From Moorella sp. Hama-1 (GTDB taxonomy: Bacteria; Bacillota; DSM-521; Neomoorellales; Neomoorellaceae): a DNA stretch of 64,000 nt. The notes under the pieces were generated by a model. That model saw only the letters and a program-made list of their open reading frames with translations, had not been told where the DNA came from and did no database searches. Positions 2,143 through 15,831 of the stretch are shown here, piece after piece (the first letter of the stretch is position 1; each line of letters opens with the position of its first letter). The DNA lies in assembly GCF_023734095.1 (NCBI RefSeq), contig NZ_AP024620.1, positions 802,501 to 866,500 of the forward strand. The letters are read 5' to 3'. The translations under genes were made by a program, and so were the position numbers.

Positions 2143-3786
2143 TTGGAAGATAAATCTCAAACAGAAAGTTTTAGTCCAAAAGAGACGATACTTGAACAGT
2201 TTGCTGAGTTTGCAACTACTCCTAAAACAGGGTTTTATAATTCGTGCTGTATTACAAGTATTTTCATTACCTCGGGGAAGGGCAAATGGTATAGAAATGT
2301 ATTTACCGTAGCTGTTTTTGAAGAAACACCGTTTAAAAACTACAACCTGCGTTATCACAGCCCACATCTTTTTGATATTTCTAAAGAACTGAGCATAGGT
2401 ATTGTCTCTCAGCGGGTTACAATAGCGGATGCGATAAGTTTATATGAAACAGCATATAGAAGCGGTACATGGCAGCAGCCTGGATGCCCGGAGTTGGTAA
2501 TAGAAAAACTAACACCATTGCCGCCACAGTTTGTTCCGTTATCCGCTACCGTGCCTGTTAGACATATTCTGAAGAATTCATATCGTTACCCCCAATATAT
2601 GTTTGAGATGTTTTGTGAGAAGAAAGAGTTTTATTTAAACTTAAATCCCAGGTATTACCAGGGAGGAACTTCAGCGGCGGAGAAAAGGATTTACAATCTG
2701 GTGGAGAGTTACCTGCCTGTGGACCTTAGGTTTATTACTGACCGGTGGGGAAATGTTGTTTTTCAGTTTCCCGTAAACCTGCTTAAAGTTTCGGCAAGGG
2801 GTACGAGAGATGGCAAAGACCTCTTGGTGGCTATGAAGTGGCATCCCAGACTACGCAACGGACCTCGCCGCGATGTACATATTAAAGGCGAGGTATTATA
2901 TGACGGACTAATTTTAGGAAATGCCCTGGTAACCACTTCCACTGAAGTAAGTATGGAGCAACTTAGGTTGGGAACGACTGAGGGAGAGATTAATCTTCAA
3001 ATCTATAGCAGGGACTATATGTTATATAAAAGTACTTTCAATCTCATAAACCATATTAAAATAGACTTCAGTATTGCAAGTGGGGAACCGGTTACTATTT
3101 GCGTTCCGGCCAGTGGAAAACATGAAAAGGGTTTTACCTATGAGGTGCAGCCAGTCAGTTCTGCCCAAACAATGAATATCGGTAAGACTAGCGAATGGCG
3201 AGACTGGGTATGGACGCGGACGAACTTGGAATCAAAGCGTCAACTGGAAAGGCGGTTAGAATTCGTCCAGTACGGAGTGCATGGCAGGAACGAACGGGAG
3301 AAAGCACTGCAGGATTTGCGCCGGTTGATCGAATGGCATGGAGATAAAGGCGTATATCTTTGGGATCCATATGCCGAAGCACGTGATATTTGGGCCACCC
3401 TATTTGCTTGCCCGATGATACAAGCCCCTCTGCGGGTAATTACTTCATACAGCAAAAAGAGACGAAAGTTAGCTTCTCAGCAGGGCCTGGAAATTTCAGG
3501 ATATGAGGATTGGTTGGCAAGCTTTAAAAGAGATTTATCTGAAGCGGTTAAACAAAGAAAGGTGAATTTGCAGGTTCGTTGTCAACGTGATCAATATGGT
3601 TGGCAATTTCATGACCGCTTTCTTTTATTCCCAGGGCGAGAGCCTAAAGTTTGGTCCCTGGGATGCTCTTTGAATTCTATTGGTCGGCAACATAGTATTT
3701 TAATGAAAGTTTCACATGCTCAGCCTGTGATAGATGCCTTTGAGGATCTGTGGGAGGAGCTGGAGCAATGCCTCGTATGGCCTTAG
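2143..3786 (+). CDS. VPA1262-like protein with C-terminal PLD-like domain
   Basis: A 547-residue protein from a TTG start behind GGGAGGTGG. The N-terminal 300 residues look like proteins annotated as having a VPA1262 family N-terminal domain (moderate confidence). Near residues 485-525 it has HDRFLLF followed by WSLGCSLNSIG, the arrangement of a phospholipase-D-like fold (His plus a Ser-Leu-Asn turn) seen in some defence and phage-associated proteins. A second copy of the PLD motif is not obvious, so it may act as a dimer or be inactive. The 3' end overlaps the next gene by 19 bases, so the two are almost certainly translated together. The gene is AT-rich like its neighbours and unlike the rest of the window. 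Function is unknown. Confidence 0.6.
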   Translation: MEDKSQTESFSPKETILEQFAEFATTPKTGFYNSCCITSIFITSGKGKWYRNVFTVAVFEETPFKNYNLRYHSPHLFDISKELSIGIVSQRVTIADAISLYETAYRSGTWQQPGCPELVIEKLTPLPPQFVPLSATVPVRHILKNSYRYPQYMFEMFCEKKEFYLNLNPRYYQGGTSAAEKRIYNLVESYLPVDLRFITDRWGNVVFQFPVNLLKVSARGTRDGKDLLVAMKWHPRLRNGPRRDVHIKGEVLYDGLILGNALVTTSTEVSMEQLRLGTTEGEINLQIYSRDYMLYKSTFNLINHIKIDFSIASGEPVTICVPASGKHEKGFTYEVQPVSSAQTMNIGKTSEWRDWVWTRTNLESKRQLERRLEFVQYGVHGRNEREKALQDLRRLIEWHGDKGVYLWDPYAEARDIWATLFACPMIQAPLRVITSYSKKRRKLASQQGLEISGYEDWLASFKRDLSEAVKQRKVNLQVRCQRDQYGWQFHDRFLLFPGREPKVWSLGCSLNSIGRQHSILMKVSHAQPVIDAFEDLWEELEQCLVWP

Positions 3787-5420
3787 AGCATGTCTACTTA
3801 CAGCTGCATATGGGCTCCTATACTTATCCTAATCTTATTGACAGGAGAGTGTCTGATTTAATAAACTCGTGGCCGACGGGTAAAAATCAGTTGGGAAGCC
3901 TTAAGCAGGACTACCAAGCTTTTGTTAGCGAGAGGTCCCGGGATATTTCAAGGTTGTTGCAGGGGTTCTCTACTGATGAGATTGGCCGGTACCCAACACT
4001 TTCTATGGTCGATGAAAATAAAAGCCGGCAGGCCATTGCTTTGGCGGCGGGCGGGTTACTATCTTTGTTTAATACTCCCACGCTTGATGTTCTTCTTAAG
4101 TTAGCTGCAGTATGTACACTTATACAACTACCCGGTTATGTATTTCCTGCAATTGCTCGTTTTCTACTGAATCAGGAAGAATTGGCTTGGCAAGCGGTTA
4201 CAGCATCCCTTAAAAATGGGCTTCCTTTTAGTTTTAAGCTGCATGTAGATGGGGAAGAGGAAAATAATGGGGAGAAACGAGCTCTTGCTGCCTATAAAGA
4301 TGGGCTGGCCCGAGAGAACCTTCAACAGGTTTTATCATTCATGAAAAATTGGCATGCTGGGCATCGTACTTTTTTAAGTGGACCCATACAGATTATCTTA
4401 AATCTTGCATACTTTGCCGACAAAGATCTCTTTGCCAGGCTTGTAGCGAAGGAAGGTACGCCTGTTTTTGTTAACCTGATATGTGAAGATCCCCAGTATG
4501 CTTATGACTTGGAAACACTCTTCAAAATTGCAAACTTTGGTGGATTGTGGACCAGGTTGGAGATCCTGCACCATCTGACTATACTGTTACGTGAGGCAGG
4601 AGCACGGGAAGCAAGCGGAATCGAAAGCACAAAGCAACGTGCCTTTCGGAGAATGATTGCTGTTTATATCGGCAGGGTGATTATTCTCTTACTTGGGATA
4701 AAGAAGAGCGACGTACTCTGCCATATATTGAATACGCTAACAAGCATAGAACAATCGCGTAGGGATTTACCATTACTATACTATTTAGGACTAAATGTGG
4801 GGAAAGGCATTGCACTACACTTAAATGATAAAATTGTTGAGCAAGATCTACTCAAATGGGAACCGTTTAGGTCGAGTTCAGGCCTTATGTACATTCTCCG
4901 GGGCGTGCAGGATGGATTGGACCGAGAGAAATCTGTACTCTTGTCGGTGTGGAACAAGGTGCTAATACGTAAGTGGCTAAATGATCTTTGGGCGCTGTAC
5001 CGTACAGACGTGGAAGGTTCTGGAGGGAAAGATTGGCCTTTTTCGGCGTTGGATGCCGCTGTTTGGAACGCAATTACCAGAAGATGGAAAAAACGGAGCC
5101 GTTCCGTCATCTTTATTAACGGGCTTTGGCGCCGCTTATCAGCCACTGAACATCGATGGTTTACGAGTAGTATAGGCGAATGGAGGCATCTTGGAGCAAT
5201 TTACGCCGGTATTTTAGCCCATGCTGAGGCATGGAGGAATCTGGTACCAGATACTGAAATTCCTGAATCCGTTATCCATATCCTTGAATATGTAAATGAT
5301 CCACGCCACTGGTATAAAGTACCGGGAGATAAGAGAGAAACGGAAATCCCGGATTATTTTAGAGAAATACGGCAGGCTTACTTAGAAAGTACTGAAGCAA
5401 TTTTTCAAGGCAAAACGTGA
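3768..5420 (+). CDS. large helical protein of unknown function, partner of the VPA1262-like gene
   Basis: A 550-residue protein; ATG 3768 is chosen because GGGAGGAG lies eight bases upstream, inside the end of the preceding gene. The sequence is leucine-rich, with long predicted helices and no obvious catalytic motif, signal peptide or clear membrane anchor (a hydrophobic stretch near residues 95-130 is more likely buried helix). No recognised domain. The coupled start and shared composition argue that it is the obligate partner of the upstream protein, perhaps as a scaffold or sensor. The module ends at 5420; composition becomes GC-rich in the next gene. Confidence 0.6.
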   Translation: MPRMALEHVYLQLHMGSYTYPNLIDRRVSDLINSWPTGKNQLGSLKQDYQAFVSERSRDISRLLQGFSTDEIGRYPTLSMVDENKSRQAIALAAGGLLSLFNTPTLDVLLKLAAVCTLIQLPGYVFPAIARFLLNQEELAWQAVTASLKNGLPFSFKLHVDGEEENNGEKRALAAYKDGLARENLQQVLSFMKNWHAGHRTFLSGPIQIILNLAYFADKDLFARLVAKEGTPVFVNLICEDPQYAYDLETLFKIANFGGLWTRLEILHHLTILLREAGAREASGIESTKQRAFRRMIAVYIGRVIILLLGIKKSDVLCHILNTLTSIEQSRRDLPLLYYLGLNVGKGIALHLNDKIVEQDLLKWEPFRSSSGLMYILRGVQDGLDREKSVLLSVWNKVLIRKWLNDLWALYRTDVEGSGGKDWPFSALDAAVWNAITRRWKKRSRSVIFINGLWRRLSATEHRWFTSSIGEWRHLGAIYAGILAHAEAWRNLVPDTEIPESVIHILEYVNDPRHWYKVPGDKRETEIPDYFREIRQAYLESTEAIFQGKT

Positions 5421-5473
5421 GTGATTCGTAGCCAGACCTTTATTTCTATGCATAAGCAGGGGAGGTATCAGGA

Positions 5474-6043
5474 ATGGTCAACGGTAGTGCTCTTGCTAAT
5501 GAAAATATTTATCAAATTAAGGTGACCTTGAAAAGGATTAAACCGCCAATCTGGCGCCGGGTACAGGTGCCCGGCGGCATTACCCTCGCCAAGCTGCATA
5601 AAATCCTGCAGGTAGTTATGGGCTGGTATAATCGTCACCTCTACCAGTTTACAATCAATGGAAGCCATTATGGTGAACCGGATGATGAATTTTTAGTGGA
5701 AGTAAGAAATGCCCGGCGGCAAAAGCTAAAAGACGTGGTCAACCAGGAGAAGCAAAGATTTATTTACGAGTACGATTTCGGTGACGGCTGGGAGCATGAA
5801 ATTGTCGTTGAAAAGATTCTTCCGCCGGAGCCAGGGAAGCGCTACCCTGTATGCCTGAAAGGCAAACGCGCCTGCCCGCCTGAAGATTGCGGCGGTCCCT
5901 GGGGCTATGCCAGTTTGTTACATATTCTCCAGCATCCCGGGCATCCGGAATATGAAGATATGCGGGCCTGGGCAGGAGAAGATTTCGATCCCGAAGACTT
6001 CGATTTGGAGTTCGTAAACCAGGAGTTAAAAACCATCAAGTAA
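5474..6043 (+). CDS. plasmid pRiA4b ORF-3 family protein, copy 1
   Basis: A 189-residue protein with ATG 5474 behind GGGGAGG. It shows the family hallmarks: IYQIKVTLKRIKPPIWRRVQVP near the N-terminus, MGWYNRHLYQF, YDFGDGWEHEI, and a CPPEDCGGPWGY segment with paired cysteines, ending with a DFDPEDFDLE tail. The biochemical role of the family is unknown. A second full copy lies at 14949-15515, and each copy is followed by a TPR-type gene (intact here, broken there), so the pair was duplicated as a unit. Confidence 0.9.
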   Translation: MVNGSALANENIYQIKVTLKRIKPPIWRRVQVPGGITLAKLHKILQVVMGWYNRHLYQFTINGSHYGEPDDEFLVEVRNARRQKLKDVVNQEKQRFIYEYDFGDGWEHEIVVEKILPPEPGKRYPVCLKGKRACPPEDCGGPWGYASLLHILQHPGHPEYEDMRAWAGEDFDPEDFDLEFVNQELKTIK

Positions 6044-6116
6044 TGCAAGTACTGCAAGTAATGCTTTAACCTGGGACGTAAACTGATAGCCTGCTCCGCC
6101 TGGCAGTGGGGGCGGG

Positions 6117-6174
6117 GAAGGGCACCGTAGGGTGGTACAGTTGACGCCGGCGCGTAATGGCCGAACCCAAGCAC
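6117..6174 (+). repeat. 58-bp repeated gene-start unit, copy A
   Basis: This stretch, containing GGTGGTACAGTTGACGCCGG and ending in the first codons of a short frame (MAEPKH), recurs almost exactly at 8617-8673 and as a weaker third copy at 11231-11275. It contains no strong ribosome site. Each copy sits between unrelated gene pieces, so it marks a recombination joint or a former gene start. Confidence 0.7.
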
Positions 6175-6250
6175 TTTTTCATGGAGGACAATATGGTGCG
6201 CAAAAGGGGAAGAAGCAGTACATTAACATCAGGTACAGGGTGGTATGATT

Positions 6251-7132
6251 ATGCCGGATTTAGTAGAACTAATCGTTTTGGCGGCAGGAAAGACAAATCT
6301 GCGCTGCCTCCGGTTACCGGAACGGGAGATTATTACCTTACGGCCGGTCGGAGGCGTCAGGGATGAAACGGAGGGAGAAATCATCAGGGTCATCCCCTAC
6401 AAGAAATGGGAATACAACAAGCATACTTATCTTTCGGGTAAAGTCATTGATTCTTACATAGACGGTTCCGTATTAACCCCTGTTCCCTTGAGACTGTACT
6501 CGCATGGTTCCTGGGATTCTTTTTATTACTTTGCCGAGCTGTGGGAAATTGACCCCGACCTGGAGTTGCCTTCGTCTTTACCTGAGTGGGTAATTGCTGT
6601 TCTGAAAGCAGGTCCCCGTGAGGTATTTGAAATGGAGCAAATTATCCCGGGGGCAGACCCTGAGGATATAGAGGACCCCATATCCCTGGCGGTTGAATAC
6701 GCCCAACAGGGCAATATTGATAAAACATGGGAAATTTTGCAGGAGTGTCTGACCAAAGACCTGCGCTGCATTGATGCCTTTGCCCACCTGGGCACATATA
6801 CATTGGGAGATGGGCGCAGCACCTGGCATGCCAAAAAAGCAATGAAACGTTACCTGGCAGGGGTTAGCGTCGGCGAGCAGGCCTTGCCGCCAGGCTTTAA
6901 CGGCCTGCTTCCATGGAGCTGGATAAATAATCGTCCTTTTCTGCGCGCCCTGCACGGGCTCGGTCTGTGCCAGTGGCGCCTGGGCCAGTTTGATGCCGCC
7001 TGTAAGACATTCCGGCGCATTTTAATGTTTGACCCTATGGATGCCCTGGGATGCCGGTTTATTCTTCCGGATGTAGAAAAGGGACGCGAATACCTTGCAG
7101 CTATGGCGGAGGAAAATAGGCCCTATTTTTAG
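6251..7132 (+). CDS. TPR-type repeat protein, partner of the pRiA4b ORF-3 gene
   Basis: A 293-residue protein. ATG 6251 is preferred over 6245 because the broken copy at 15566 begins with the same residues (M-x-DLVELIVLAAG). The N-terminal half is not recognised; from about residue 145 there are helical repeats of tetratricopeptide type (AVEYAQQGNIDKTWEILQ, then GLCQWRLGQFDAACKTFRRIL). Probably a protein-protein interaction module; the function of the pair is unknown. Confidence 0.65.
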   Translation: MPDLVELIVLAAGKTNLRCLRLPEREIITLRPVGGVRDETEGEIIRVIPYKKWEYNKHTYLSGKVIDSYIDGSVLTPVPLRLYSHGSWDSFYYFAELWEIDPDLELPSSLPEWVIAVLKAGPREVFEMEQIIPGADPEDIEDPISLAVEYAQQGNIDKTWEILQECLTKDLRCIDAFAHLGTYTLGDGRSTWHAKKAMKRYLAGVSVGEQALPPGFNGLLPWSWINNRPFLRALHGLGLCQWRLGQFDAACKTFRRILMFDPMDALGCRFILPDVEKGREYLAAMAEENRPYF

Positions 7133-7251
7133 CAGAAGAAGCTGAAGTTACCTATTGACCGTCAGGTTAGGCAAGAATAAATTTCCTTTTAGTCGTGGAA
7201 ACGAGCAGAAAAATAACAGCAAAAAAAGAAGCTGAGGAATGGTGTTATAGG

Positions 7252-7651
7252 ATGCACCAACAAATAACTGCCAAGGTGAATGAAATAGAGAAAGGAGTCA
7301 GGTATTCCCCTGGATTGTTCTTATCGGATGCATCTTTATGGCCCTTATAGCCATGAGGTAGCCCAGGAGCTTCATGATGTAATTGAAATGGAGCTTCTAA
7401 AAGAAGATAACTTGAACATGGGTTTTACGCAAGGGACGGCGTGCGAGACTTATCTTAAACAACATGAGCGGGAGATCGAAACTTACCGCAATAAACTTGA
7501 TGCTGTACTTGAGAGATTTGGTAGTTTTAGCCCCTTACTTTTAGAACTTTATGCTACCACGCATTTTATTGCTACTGCCCGCTATCAGACTTACGGCGCG
7601 GTGACAAAACAAGAAGTTTATTATGGAAGTTCGCCAGGCGTAGGGGAATAA
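7252..7651 (+). pseudogene. broken Panacea/YwgA-like gene
   Basis: The frame from 7328 gives 107 residues beginning HLYGPYSHEVAQELHDV, which resembles the middle of Panacea or YwgA-type domains (a YGPYS motif followed by an acidic helix). Such domains normally have about 40-60 residues before this point; here the upstream frame from 7252 ends at a stop, so the 5' part is missing or frameshifted. Panacea domains are antitoxins of varied toxin-antitoxin pairs, but no toxin partner is visible. Confidence 0.35.
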
Positions 7652-7680
7652 ATTTACTATCCAACTGTGAACCTGCAGAT

Positions 7681-8102
7681 GTGATTATTGTCCTCTCAGG
7701 TGAACAGGTGAGCGGGTGGCGACCGGGGGTAAACCTCTACCAGGAAGGCCTGGCTCCAGCGTGGACGGAGTTGGCTGATGTGCTGAGGCGGCTGGGAAAA
7801 CAGGGCGAGGAGTTTAATACAGCTTTATTGTCTCTGCGTTCATTAAACGGAATGGGTACGGCGATGGTACGGTGATGTTCGCCCTGACCCGTTAAGTGCA
7901 ATTTAAATGGCCGGGTATAAAACCTCAGGATGCAAGCTTTAATACTTTGTCGAGATACGGCTAACCTCTTGCGGGGACGGGGCTATGACCGGCCGGCACT
8001 ACTTTGCATCCTGCCGGGAACGTTGATCGGCAGTCAGGTCCCCGGCCGGTTACGAGATTAGCCACTTCCTTTAGCCCTTGCTAGAATGGGGGGCGAAAGG
8101 AG
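7681..8102. other. gene fragments and leader, no intact gene
   Basis: A 64-residue frame at 7681-7875 has no recognisable domain and weak start signals. Its part around 7796-7826 recurs at 10669-10699, so I read it as a fragment. The rest to 8102 is the leader of the next gene, including the repeated segment at 8037-8115. Confidence 0.4.
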
Positions 8103-8115
8103 GTGAACACCATGG
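8037..8115 (+). repeat. duplicated leader with strong ribosome binding site
   Basis: About 75 bases (cores CACTTCCTTTAGCCC and GGGGCGAAAGGAGGTGA) recur at 10715-10790. In both places an ATG follows, but here it starts a 114-codon gene and there a short blocked frame. The copied unit is therefore a leader plus Shine-Dalgarno site joined to different downstream sequences. Confidence 0.75.
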
Positions 8116-8456
8116 CTAAAGTGACAGCGCCCTTGATGTCCCTGGATGCCAGCGGCGCCCTGGGGAAGGCCCTGGTCTTTGCCAAATGGAAGGGGATCAA
8201 TTATGCCCGGCGCTATTTTGTGCCCATGAACCCCAATACTGAGAACCAGGAAAGGGTCCGCGGCTACTTCACCCGGGCGGTGACCAGTTGGCAGGGGGAG
8301 GGCCCTGAGACCAGGGCCATGTGGAACGCGGCCGTACGCGGCCGGCCGCTGACGGGGATGAACTACTACCTGGCCCAGTATATCAAGTACCTTTCCAGCC
8401 ATAACGGCCAGGCCCCGGCCACGCCCTTCCTGCCCCCGGGGCAGCAGCAATCCTAA
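8112..8456 (+). CDS. phage-like protein of unknown function
   Basis: 114 residues from ATG 8112, eight bases after AAAGGAGGTG. The pattern (substrate-like SLDASGALGKALVF, KGINYARRYFVP, then NPNTENQERVR) resembles small structural proteins found in prophage remnants, with a conserved NPNT/Q-x-R helix. No signal peptide or membrane segment. The 3' end and following bases (8425-8508) are repeated at about 14087-14170 without the rest of the gene. Confidence 0.5.
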   Translation: MAKVTAPLMSLDASGALGKALVFAKWKGINYARRYFVPMNPNTENQERVRGYFTRAVTSWQGEGPETRAMWNAAVRGRPLTGMNYYLAQYIKYLSSHNGQAPATPFLPPGQQQS

Positions 8457-8894
8457 GGATTCAACCTGGAAGCGGCAGGGCCAGCGGCTTTGCCGCTTTT
8501 CCCCATGCCGGCCCTGCCTTACTGCCATGGGCAAAGACGGCAATGGGCAACGTTGTAAAAATATCACGAAGGAACTTTCTATAATTTGTCGAATATCCCC
8601 TTATAGTCCTAGCAGGGGGGCGCCGTAAGGTGGTACAGTTGACGCCGGCGCGTAATGGCCGAACACAAGCACATAAAGCAGGTAGCCCTTAGCGAACCAC
8701 TGAACAAGGATATTATTTACGAGAATGCTTTCCTGTAGGCGGCGAGTCTTTTTCGTAATGCCGGTGCCTGGAAATAGCCAGGTACGTTAGGGAACCGTTC
8801 CCTCTTGCCACCGGACCCCATGGCTGCTCCGAATTAATATTACCAGCACGATAGGATGTATAGTTGACAAGTTTTTTTGTGGGTGAGGCTTATT
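8457..8894. other. 438-base stretch with repeat copy B and a short decayed frame
   Basis: Contains copy B of the 58-bp repeat (8617-8673), continuing as a 27-codon frame (8655-8738, MAEHKHIKQVALSEP) that ends in a stop. The segment at 8588-8636 resembles 11174-11240. The last 60 bases are AT-richer and lead to the SWIM gene; I see no convincing promoter. Confidence 0.5.
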
Positions 8895-10625
8895 ATGGAC
8901 GAGAAAGACATGATAACCGGTTTAACAGAGGCATATATCCGCCAGTTGGCAGGCGAGCAAAGTTTTAAGCGCGGGATGAATTACTACACCATGGGAGCCA
9001 TCCGGGAGCCCTTCCGGCAGGAGGCGCAACTATGGGGGAAGTGTTACGGGTCCCAGGATGAACCATACAGGGTAAAAGTTGTGTTAGGGGAAAACGGCAT
9101 CCGCGAAGCCTCCTGCACCTGCCCCCGGGGCGGGTTCTGTAAACACATCGTAGCCCTTTTGCTTACATATATTCACGAACCCGGGGCCTTCCACGACATA
9201 AACTCGCTGGAGGCCATGCTTGCCTCTTTCAGCAAGGAAGATCTTATAGCTCTGATCGGGAACATGGTGCAGCGGGAGCCCTCATTGCTGGCGCTGGTGG
9301 AGAGAATGGTTGCTATGCCACCCGGGTCTTCTGTAGATATTGCTTTGGTACGCCGCGAAGTGGGGCGGGCCCTGCGCCACGAGGACCCTTCCGACATTGA
9401 GGCAGACCTGCGGGCTTTATTGAGCATGGCGGAAAACCTGGCTCAAAAAGGAGACTGGCTGGGGGCAGGCACGGTTTACCGGGAGGTACTGGACGCCCTG
9501 GCGGCCAGCTACGATGATGAGTTGCAGGGGATGGATTATGATGGAGCCATTGCTGCTATTGCTGGTGATTGCGTGGATGGGTTGAGCGAATGCCTGGACG
9601 AAGGCGATTACGACAGCGCCACACGGCAGGCCTGGTTGGCGACCCTTATGGCAGCGGAACTGGCGGATATCAAGCTGGGGGGCATAGACTTTGCGCCTGG
9701 CGCCTTCGATATCATTATCGAGCAAGCTACTGAAGAAGAATGGCCGCTCCTGGAGGAACGCGTTCGTGAACTTATACCGGAAAGCGATGATTGGGAGAGG
9801 GAGAGGCTGGTAAACATCCTGGCAGCCTGGCGGGTAAATTACGGTCGGCACGATGAAGCCTGCCGGATTATCCGCGAACTGGGCACGGTAAAGCAACAGA
9901 TGTTTCTCCTGGTAAGGGAGGGGAAACCAGGAGAAGCGGTAGCCCTGGCAAAGGAGCACTTTACAAAAAAGCCCGGCATAATAATCAACCTGGCTCGGGC
10001 GCTGGCAGATGCCGGTGCGGCGGAATATGGCGTTGCCTTTTTAACACAACTGGCAAATTCGGAAGAATCCCATCCAGGCTACCTGGAATGGCTGGCTGAG
10101 CATTACCGTCAAAATGGCGACCTGGAAGCGGCATTAAAATGGCAGCGTGCGGTATTTCTGCAAAGCCCGGCAGTAAAATCGTACGAAGTTTTACGTGAAG
10201 TAGGCGCAAGGCTCGGTGTTTGGGAAGAGGTGCGAACCGGGGTACTTAAAGAGCTGGAAGATAAAAATAACTATGGAAAGCTTATTGAGATTGCCCTGCA
10301 CGAGAATGACGTGACGCGGGCGCTGGAGCTTTTACCCCGGGCGCAACGCGGCGGTTGGCATGATTACAGGGCGGAAGTGGCCAGGGCCGCCGAGGAGAAA
10401 CAGCCCCTGGATGCCATAGCGCTATATCAAGAAATGGTAAAGACGGCTATCGGCTGGCGCCAGCGCAAAACCTATCGCCGGGCAGCGGAATTTTTGCGCC
10501 GCATAAAGGGCCTCTATGGACGCCTGGGTTATCGCGGGGAATGGGAAAAATACCTGGCTGCTCTGCGAAAAGAATATGCCCGTTTGCCGGCTCTGCAAGA
10601 TGAATTTAATAAGGCAGGTTTGTAA
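8895..10625 (+). CDS. SWIM zinc finger protein with helical repeat C-terminus
   Basis: 576 residues; ATG 8895 chosen over GTG 8877 because GTGAGG lies just upstream and the next residues (MDEKDMITGL) look native. A SWIM zinc finger lies near residues 70-90: SCTCPRGGFCKHIVALLL gives the CxC...CxH ligands. The remaining 480 residues are TPR-like helical repeats (LAQKGDWLGAGTVYREVLDAL, GDLEAALKWQRAVF). SWIM proteins bind DNA or partner proteins, often near helicases, but none is encoded here. A much shortened copy lies at 13141-13301. Confidence 0.85.
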   Translation: MDEKDMITGLTEAYIRQLAGEQSFKRGMNYYTMGAIREPFRQEAQLWGKCYGSQDEPYRVKVVLGENGIREASCTCPRGGFCKHIVALLLTYIHEPGAFHDINSLEAMLASFSKEDLIALIGNMVQREPSLLALVERMVAMPPGSSVDIALVRREVGRALRHEDPSDIEADLRALLSMAENLAQKGDWLGAGTVYREVLDALAASYDDELQGMDYDGAIAAIAGDCVDGLSECLDEGDYDSATRQAWLATLMAAELADIKLGGIDFAPGAFDIIIEQATEEEWPLLEERVRELIPESDDWERERLVNILAAWRVNYGRHDEACRIIRELGTVKQQMFLLVREGKPGEAVALAKEHFTKKPGIIINLARALADAGAAEYGVAFLTQLANSEESHPGYLEWLAEHYRQNGDLEAALKWQRAVFLQSPAVKSYEVLREVGARLGVWEEVRTGVLKELEDKNNYGKLIEIALHENDVTRALELLPRAQRGGWHDYRAEVARAAEEKQPLDAIALYQEMVKTAIGWRQRKTYRRAAEFLRRIKGLYGRLGYRGEWEKYLAALRKEYARLPALQDEFNKAGL

Positions 10626-14782: not shown

Positions 14783-14948
14783 TAAGAAAAATGAAGCATG
14801 TGATGCCCATAGTCAGAACTGCTGGAGGCTTACGAAACCCTTTTTGACGAAGAAGGTGAATTGCGCCCGCCACTAAAGGATGCAATGTATCCTTTGATTT
14901 GGTATTTTGACGGTCGATTTTATGATTCTGACGGGGGAGGCACCGGGA

Positions 14949-15515
14949 ATGGTCAACGATAGTATTAATGCTAATGAAACTATTTATCAACTTAAGGTTA
15001 CCTTGAAAAGGATTAAGCCGCCAATCTGGCGTCGGATACAGGTGCCCGGCAGCATTACCCTTCACAAGCTGCACGAAATCCTGCAGATAGTTATGGGCTG
15101 GCAGAATTATCATCTTTACCAGTTTACTATTGATGGCAGCTATTATGGCGAACTGGATGATGAGTTTTCTATGGACGTTGAAGACGCTTCGGAGTATAAG
15201 TTAAAAGACGTGGTCACCGGGGAGAAGGAAAGGTTTATTTACGAGTATGATCTCGGCGACGGCTGGGAACACGAAATTATTGTAGAAAAGATTCTGCCGT
15301 TAGAACCAGATAAGCACTATCCTGTATGCTTGAAGGGTAAACGCGCTTGCCCACCTGAAGATTGTGGTGGTCCCTGGGGCTATTACGATTTGGTGACTAT
15401 CCTTCAGAATCCAGACCATCCTGAATATAACGATAGGCGAACCTGGGCAGGAGATTTCGATCCCGAGGATTTCGATTTGGAGTTCATAAACAAGGAGTTG
15501 ATAACTATTATGTAA
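14949..15515 (+). CDS. plasmid pRiA4b ORF-3 family protein, copy 2
   Basis: 188 residues from ATG 14949 (same MVN start as copy 1, with GACGGGGGAGG upstream). Nearly all family motifs are kept: KRIKPPIWRRIQVP, MGWQNYHLYQF, YDLGDGWEHEI and CPPEDCGGPWGYYD. It differs from copy 1 (5474-6043) by many substitutions but no gap larger than a few codons. The TPR partner following it is broken, while the one after copy 1 is intact. Confidence 0.9.
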   Translation: MVNDSINANETIYQLKVTLKRIKPPIWRRIQVPGSITLHKLHEILQIVMGWQNYHLYQFTIDGSYYGELDDEFSMDVEDASEYKLKDVVTGEKERFIYEYDLGDGWEHEIIVEKILPLEPDKHYPVCLKGKRACPPEDCGGPWGYYDLVTILQNPDHPEYNDRRTWAGDFDPEDFDLEFINKELITIM

Positions 15516-15565
15516 CGGCGATCCCGGACTTATCGCTGAAGTCCCTTTTACAGGAGGTTATCACT

Positions 15566-15831
15566 ATGGCGGACTTAGTAGAACTAATTGTTTTGGCGGC
15601 AGGAGAAAAAAATCTCCGTTGCCTCCGGTTACCGGAACGGGATAAATAATCGTCTTTTTCTGCGCGCCTTGCACGGGCTTGGTCTCTGCCAGTGGCGCCT
15701 GGGACAGTTTGATGCCGCCCATCAGACTTTCTGGCGGATTTTAATGCTTGACCCCATGGATTATTCTTCCGGATGTAGAAAAAGGCCGCGATTACCTGGA
15801 GGTTATAGCGGGGGGAGATAGGCTTCGTTAA
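15566..15831 (+). pseudogene. TPR-protein gene with large internal deletion
   Basis: Starts MADLVELIVLAAGEKNLRCLRLPERD behind CAGGAGG, matching the start of the gene at 6251, then jumps to sequence equivalent to about 6925 (NNRPFLRALHGLG-like) and ends near the equivalent of that gene's stop. Roughly 600 bases are missing and at least one more frame change occurs near 15765. Confidence 0.8.

Follow-up and report, generated by a model that had tools for sequence, protein, structure and literature searches.

Overlapping genes for a VPA1262-family protein and a helical partner probably form an uncharacterised phage-defence system

What do two overlapping genes in a repeat-rich island of Moorella sp. 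Hama-1 do? An earlier reading of the DNA, made from its letters alone (the sequence-only reading), had proposed that the pair may be a sensor/effector module for defence, its PLD domain acting by cutting nucleic acid or lipid. We analysed the two genes, here called A and B, together with their homologues and neighbours, starting from a 64,000-nucleotide stretch of contig NZ_AP024620.1 (the window); the features of the pair all lie on its plus strand. A/B is probably an uncharacterised phage-defence system, since the two genes are inseparable and, in many bacteria and some archaea, have anti-virus genes around them.

A coupled gene pair in a mosaic island

Gene A (2143–3786) opens with a TTG start behind a ribosome-binding-like site (GGGAGGTGG, 2128–2136) and encodes 547 aa, a VPA1262 N-terminal-domain protein with a predicted C-terminal PLD fold (NF040700, AF2 model and family alignment). 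Gene B (ATG 3768–5420) encodes 550 aa, a predicted all-helical, HEAT/ARM-like solenoid partner (AF2 model, fold matches and B-family profiles). An alternative start of B, GTG 3750, was the choice of the ORF lister; ATG 3768 stands at normal spacing after a ribosome-binding-like site within gene A (GGGAGGAG, 3752–3759) and yields an exact 19-base overlap with gene A, the very overlap that the sequence-only reading had given. The pair is translationally coupled. Its description as AT-rich also held, with GC contents of 0.43 (A) and 0.44 (B) against 0.55 in the window. When the region was shuffled 300 times, the longest stop-free run was 162 codons, so two frames of about 550 codons are not a product of chance.

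The neighbours named earlier, TcmP and DUF5131, were both recovered, TcmP as a match to TIGR04474. The TcmP gene is whole in the genome (342 aa; 12381–13409 of L036, the window's own locus) and is cut by the window edge, so an apparent TcmP truncation was rejected as a window-edge effect only. Together the two genes (L036 12381–14228, window about −119 to 1728) match the PADLOC candidate pair PDC-M30, and DUF5131 also matches PDC-M41B; judged by these profile matches, they may be more than the mobile-DNA passengers they had been linked to. Further upstream of the window lies a 1052-aa helicase-PLD protein (L036 6141–9299, window about −6359 to −3201) that matches MkoA (E 5.5e-65) and MkoC (E 4.7e-39); this Mokosh-like helicase has C-terminal PLD-like (HEKLAFVD) and zinc-finger-like parts. 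On the other side of the pair, a 582-aa protein (8877–10625) partially matches the PADLOC candidate PDC-S62 (E 4.5e-13).

Window segments 1757–2005, 7131–7665 and 7797–8505 recur upstream at 84–100% identity and comprise the end of a sugar-epimerase/CapD-like gene, a DarG-C-like ORF and a YdcF-like region; the repeats suggest that defence cassettes were inserted into a duplicated, fragmented locus. Here (5459–6043) and at one related locus, B is followed by a PRiA4_ORF3 gene. We rejected it as a third component and regard it as a module of its own, because a second copy (14934–15515) occurs without the pair. The PRiA4_ORF3-like gene and neighbouring pieces of a TPR gene are present twice (5459–7121 and 14934–15823, about 80% identity), and the second copy looks degraded. 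Given that the flanking sequences and the PRiA4_ORF3 gene recur elsewhere, A and B are the unrepeated segment (about 2.0–5.45 kb) of a mosaic, repeat-rich island.

A and B are inherited together

Scanning 84,980 species genomes revealed 80 loci with A, spread, to go by the genome titles, over Bacillota, Bacteroidota, Pseudomonadota, Campylobacterota, Acidobacteriota, Spirochaetota, Fibrobacterota, Chloroflexota, Melainabacteria and the archaeal Methanobrevibacter; identity to the window protein in the family alignment is about 23–54%. Directly 3′ of A, nearly all loci carry an ORF of ~370–600 aa that usually overlaps it. These partner ORFs form one family, with 83 of 87 (a few repeated records included) in a single-linkage cluster, which the window's three-member B group joins by iterated search and profile comparison (E 4e-7 and 4e-10). 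B overlaps A or lies within 30 nt of it in 75 of 77 intact pairs, confirming that homologues of the two genes are almost always adjacent, and tree distances for A and B are strongly correlated over the 77 pairs (Spearman 0.82; permutation maximum 0.11). Among close pairs, B is the less conserved member in 83 of 86.

An independent search for B in 39 A-bearing genomes returned 39 copies in 38 genomes, all within the A locus by coordinates; in the one exception, a Chitinophaga (L056), A is intact but B was not detected. In the window's phylum, B occurs in 4 of 398 genomes, each also carrying A: three copies adjoin an intact A, and the fourth is partial, at a contig end. B was never found apart from A among 437 genomes searched. 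The pair is thus co-inherited. It is also accessory in distribution, gene A being absent from all 10 other species of the source genus that were searched. In a Bradyrhizobium plasmid copy, the pair is naturally separated by an IS630 transposase gene (L002 7563–8764) lying between A and B.

Two coupled genes with an accessory spread, one of them evolving faster than the other, would fit a toxin–antitoxin pair, with A as a PLD-type toxin and B as its neutralising antitoxin. We consider this improbable: unlike most antitoxins, B equals its partner in size; the Chitinophaga A persists intact with no B detected; and other branches have, in place of B, an A carrying a large fused C-terminal part.

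Defence genes surround the pair

Around 20 pair loci on long contigs, 202 neighbour ORFs matched 84 + 57 PADLOC families (141 at E ≤ 1e-15), compared with 8 + 11 (19), mostly generic models, for the 242 ORFs of 20 random 16-kb windows from the same contigs. The ratio of 141 to 19 is only indicative, as families and not genes were counted and several models may match one protein; among the families listed, the first 25 of each set, the kinds of systems differ plainly. Families listed near the pair include CBASS cyclase/E1-E2/JAB, Avs4, Lamassu, Hachiman, AbiE, SIR2, RM, BREX BrxH, RT and PD-Lambda-2, and plasmid copies of the pair adjoin CBASS, reverse transcriptase and restriction genes. The defence context assumed by the sequence-only reading is borne out by this strong enrichment, and by the island criterion the pair counts as a candidate defence system. 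We regard a defence function as likely.

Some copies sit on plasmids near ParB or beside integrases, and VPA1262 itself belongs to VPaI-6, an integrase-bearing genomic island variably present in V. parahaemolyticus (PMC1464126), as would suit a housekeeping module of mobile elements, one that maintains or transfers plasmids or islands and is found beside defence genes only because it shares their islands. However, most loci are chromosomal, neighbour families are varied and little shared (the commonest is found at 8 of 81 loci), the enrichment is for defence families, and copies on viral contigs are very few (5 of 2.9 million), making such a housekeeping role very unlikely. A phage-borne origin of the pair was rejected as well, with copies in only those five viral contigs and one phage record.

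Gene A has a predicted PLD fold and an altered motif

The likeness of gene A to VPA1262 was upheld by NCBIfam model NF040700 (VPA1262_N_dom), which matches residues 81–539 at 232.3 bits (cut-off 80); the full-length model NF040699, built for a ~1026-aa fused protein, scored 35.6 bits, below its cut-off of 325. Gene A has no family in Pfam, PHROGs or solved-structure sequence searches, and no useful match in the viral-structure library. Its AF2 model (pLDDT 93.1, pTM 0.81) predicts an alpha/beta N-terminal domain with no assigned fold (residues 1–205, 2143–2757), a beta-sandwich (residues 210–345, 2770–3177; structure comparison) and a C-terminal PLD half-domain (residues 371–547, 3253–3783; VIA Z matches). 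Fold matches hardly cover residues 1–150, and residues 210–304 are similar to an Ig-like domain found in GH2 enzymes, with a VIA Z of about 11 across about 89 residues. For residues 371–547 the PLD superfamily tops the structure-match list: NucT (Z 12.8), SauUSI (12.3), Nuc (12.2), FAM83B (11.9) and MITD1 (10.0), with Zucchini also matched. The strings HDRFLLF and SLGCSLNSIG, from which a PLD-like domain had been proposed, do occur in gene A (residues 490–496 and 505–514), and structure prediction places a PLD fold, almost certainly correctly, in its last 177 residues.

Three motifs of this region are invariant in 74 homologues: W407-D408-P409 (3361–3369), H490-D491-R492 (3610–3618), which reads HxR instead of HxK, and S509-x-N511 (3667–3675), the GSxN counterpart. 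The catalytic HKD PLD signature is HxK(x)4D(x)6GSxN (PMC11442185). Gene A fails this signature, its family having Arg for Lys in 74 of 74 homologues and Pro at the Asp position in 69 of 74; the H, S and N of the signature are nonetheless invariant. With the signature lysine an arginine and the aspartate usually a proline, catalysis by A is not to be assumed, and the claim that the domain cuts nucleic acid or lipid is unsupported as it was stated. The mismatch would make membership in the catalytic PLD enzymes less probable while leaving room for a variant chemistry, and we lean slightly against A being a catalytic nuclease. In the N-terminal domain, N52 and K161 are invariant and K144 and D200 near-invariant across the same 74 homologues; the four residues (window 2296–2742) may mark a second functional site. 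K161 is counted with H490, R492, S509, N511, W407 and D408 among the invariant active-site candidates.

The pair could be a defence module with a non-catalytic PLD domain, the HxR domain binding nucleic acid or membrane and any enzymatic site lying in the N-terminal domain of A (N52, K161). The lysine and aspartate replacements and the invariant polar residues of that domain would fit, as would the presence of FAM83B and MITD1 among the structural matches; the PLD-like domains of FAM83 and MITD1 are thought to bind nucleic acid or membrane. Yet the nucleases Nuc, NucT and SauUSI match equally well, and the invariance of H490, R492, S509 and N511 in proteins of about 23–54% identity exceeds what binding alone usually demands. 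We therefore think a purely binding domain rather unlikely.

Gene B encodes a predicted helical solenoid

The AF2 model of the gene B product is all-helical (28 helices; pLDDT 88.0, pTM 0.89), in agreement with its earlier description as a helical protein of 550 residues. Its best fold match, the SPIRAL2 TOG domain (Z 10.5), falls inside the background of helical proteins. Matches to beta-catenin, importins and TOG domains were not taken as homology, the fold matches being no better than those of helical repeats in general, and the product appears HEAT/ARM-like in arrangement only. Searches of NCBIfam, PADLOC and PHROGs gave no match for gene B, and Pfam gave only a sub-threshold one and none to HEAT/ARM; solved-structure sequence searches assigned it no family.

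Relation to known systems

PLD-fold proteins in defence systems are already known, so the pair is not wholly new in kind. Like A, DrmC of DISARM (PMC12458937), MkoC of Mokosh and the pAgo-associated AgaP (PMC11442185) are PLD-fold proteins within defence systems. Their partners are helicases or Argonaute, whereas that of A is a helical solenoid with no recognised enzymatic domain, and the PADLOC DrmC and MkoC models do not match gene A. With Nuc, NucT and SauUSI, A shares the PLD fold, one motif per chain and the H and SxN residues; it differs in having HxR rather than HxK, no HKD aspartate, additional N-terminal and beta-sandwich domains and a helical partner gene. A divergent VPA1262 relative (L008) is weakly matched in its PLD-like part by models PDC-S05 (E 7e-9) and Menshen NsnC (E 3e-6), but the rest of A and all of B are unmatched and the gene neighbours differ. 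No system model in PADLOC (2023 release) matches A or B, the sole PADLOC match of the window's A being a marginal one to PDC-S05 (E 0.028). The pair is not described in PADLOC, Pfam or the open literature searched; the main text of the DefensePredictor paper mentions neither PLD, solenoid nor VPA, and VPA1262 is named in the literature searched in Vibrio epidemiology work only.

A possible mechanism

We think it somewhat more likely than not that the pair is an obligate anti-phage (or anti-plasmid) module of two components: B would sense or gate, and the PLD domain of A would attack a phosphodiester. The A and B proteins would form one complex, and the faster-evolving B solenoid, with the N-terminal and beta-sandwich part of A, would sense the invader or gate the response. 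The PLD half-domains of A may pair as in Nuc and NucT, building an active site from H490, R492, S509 and N511. This HxR site would then attack a phosphodiester, nucleic acid being the most likely substrate, and the attack would stop replication or kill the infected cell. The sensor/effector module of the sequence-only reading thus stands as regards adjacency, PLD fold and defence enrichment, while which protein senses and which acts is something we infer.

If this is correct, the PADLOC release consulted lacks a system broadly distributed across many bacterial phyla and Methanobrevibacter. An NCBIfam family whose name comes solely from a locus tag of Vibrio parahaemolyticus would become an immune module open to testing, and the question would arise of whether arginine can replace the catalytic lysine in the PLD superfamily.

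Variants of the VPA1262 core

The window holds the short, two-gene form of the VPA1262 family (NF040699/NF040700), with which A has the N-terminal domain in common. Several other genomes of the same phylum carry a long fused form, A plus a ~500-aa tail (NF040699). Profile comparison of five such tails with B showed no detectable similarity, and identity of the fused tail with B was rejected. On a Klebsiella plasmid and in one further genome, A is followed by a ~210–250-aa ORF; this Klebsiella form was not found in E. coli. These fused-tail and short-ORF variants suggest that the VPA1262 core can function with different partners.

A bolder and more tentative picture is of a widespread, undescribed two-component immune system, in which an HxR-type PLD effector of altered chemistry or substrate is gated by a fast-evolving solenoid recognising phage components, the VPA1262 core serving as a chassis with swapped partners (solenoid gene, fused tail or three-gene form). 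The VPA1262_N protein and the ~210–250-aa ORF lie at L008 7053–11381 and L147 1264–3712; in the L008 variant the PLD-like HDRF motif is found in the ~210–250-aa ORF, and a 639-aa ORF follows as well.
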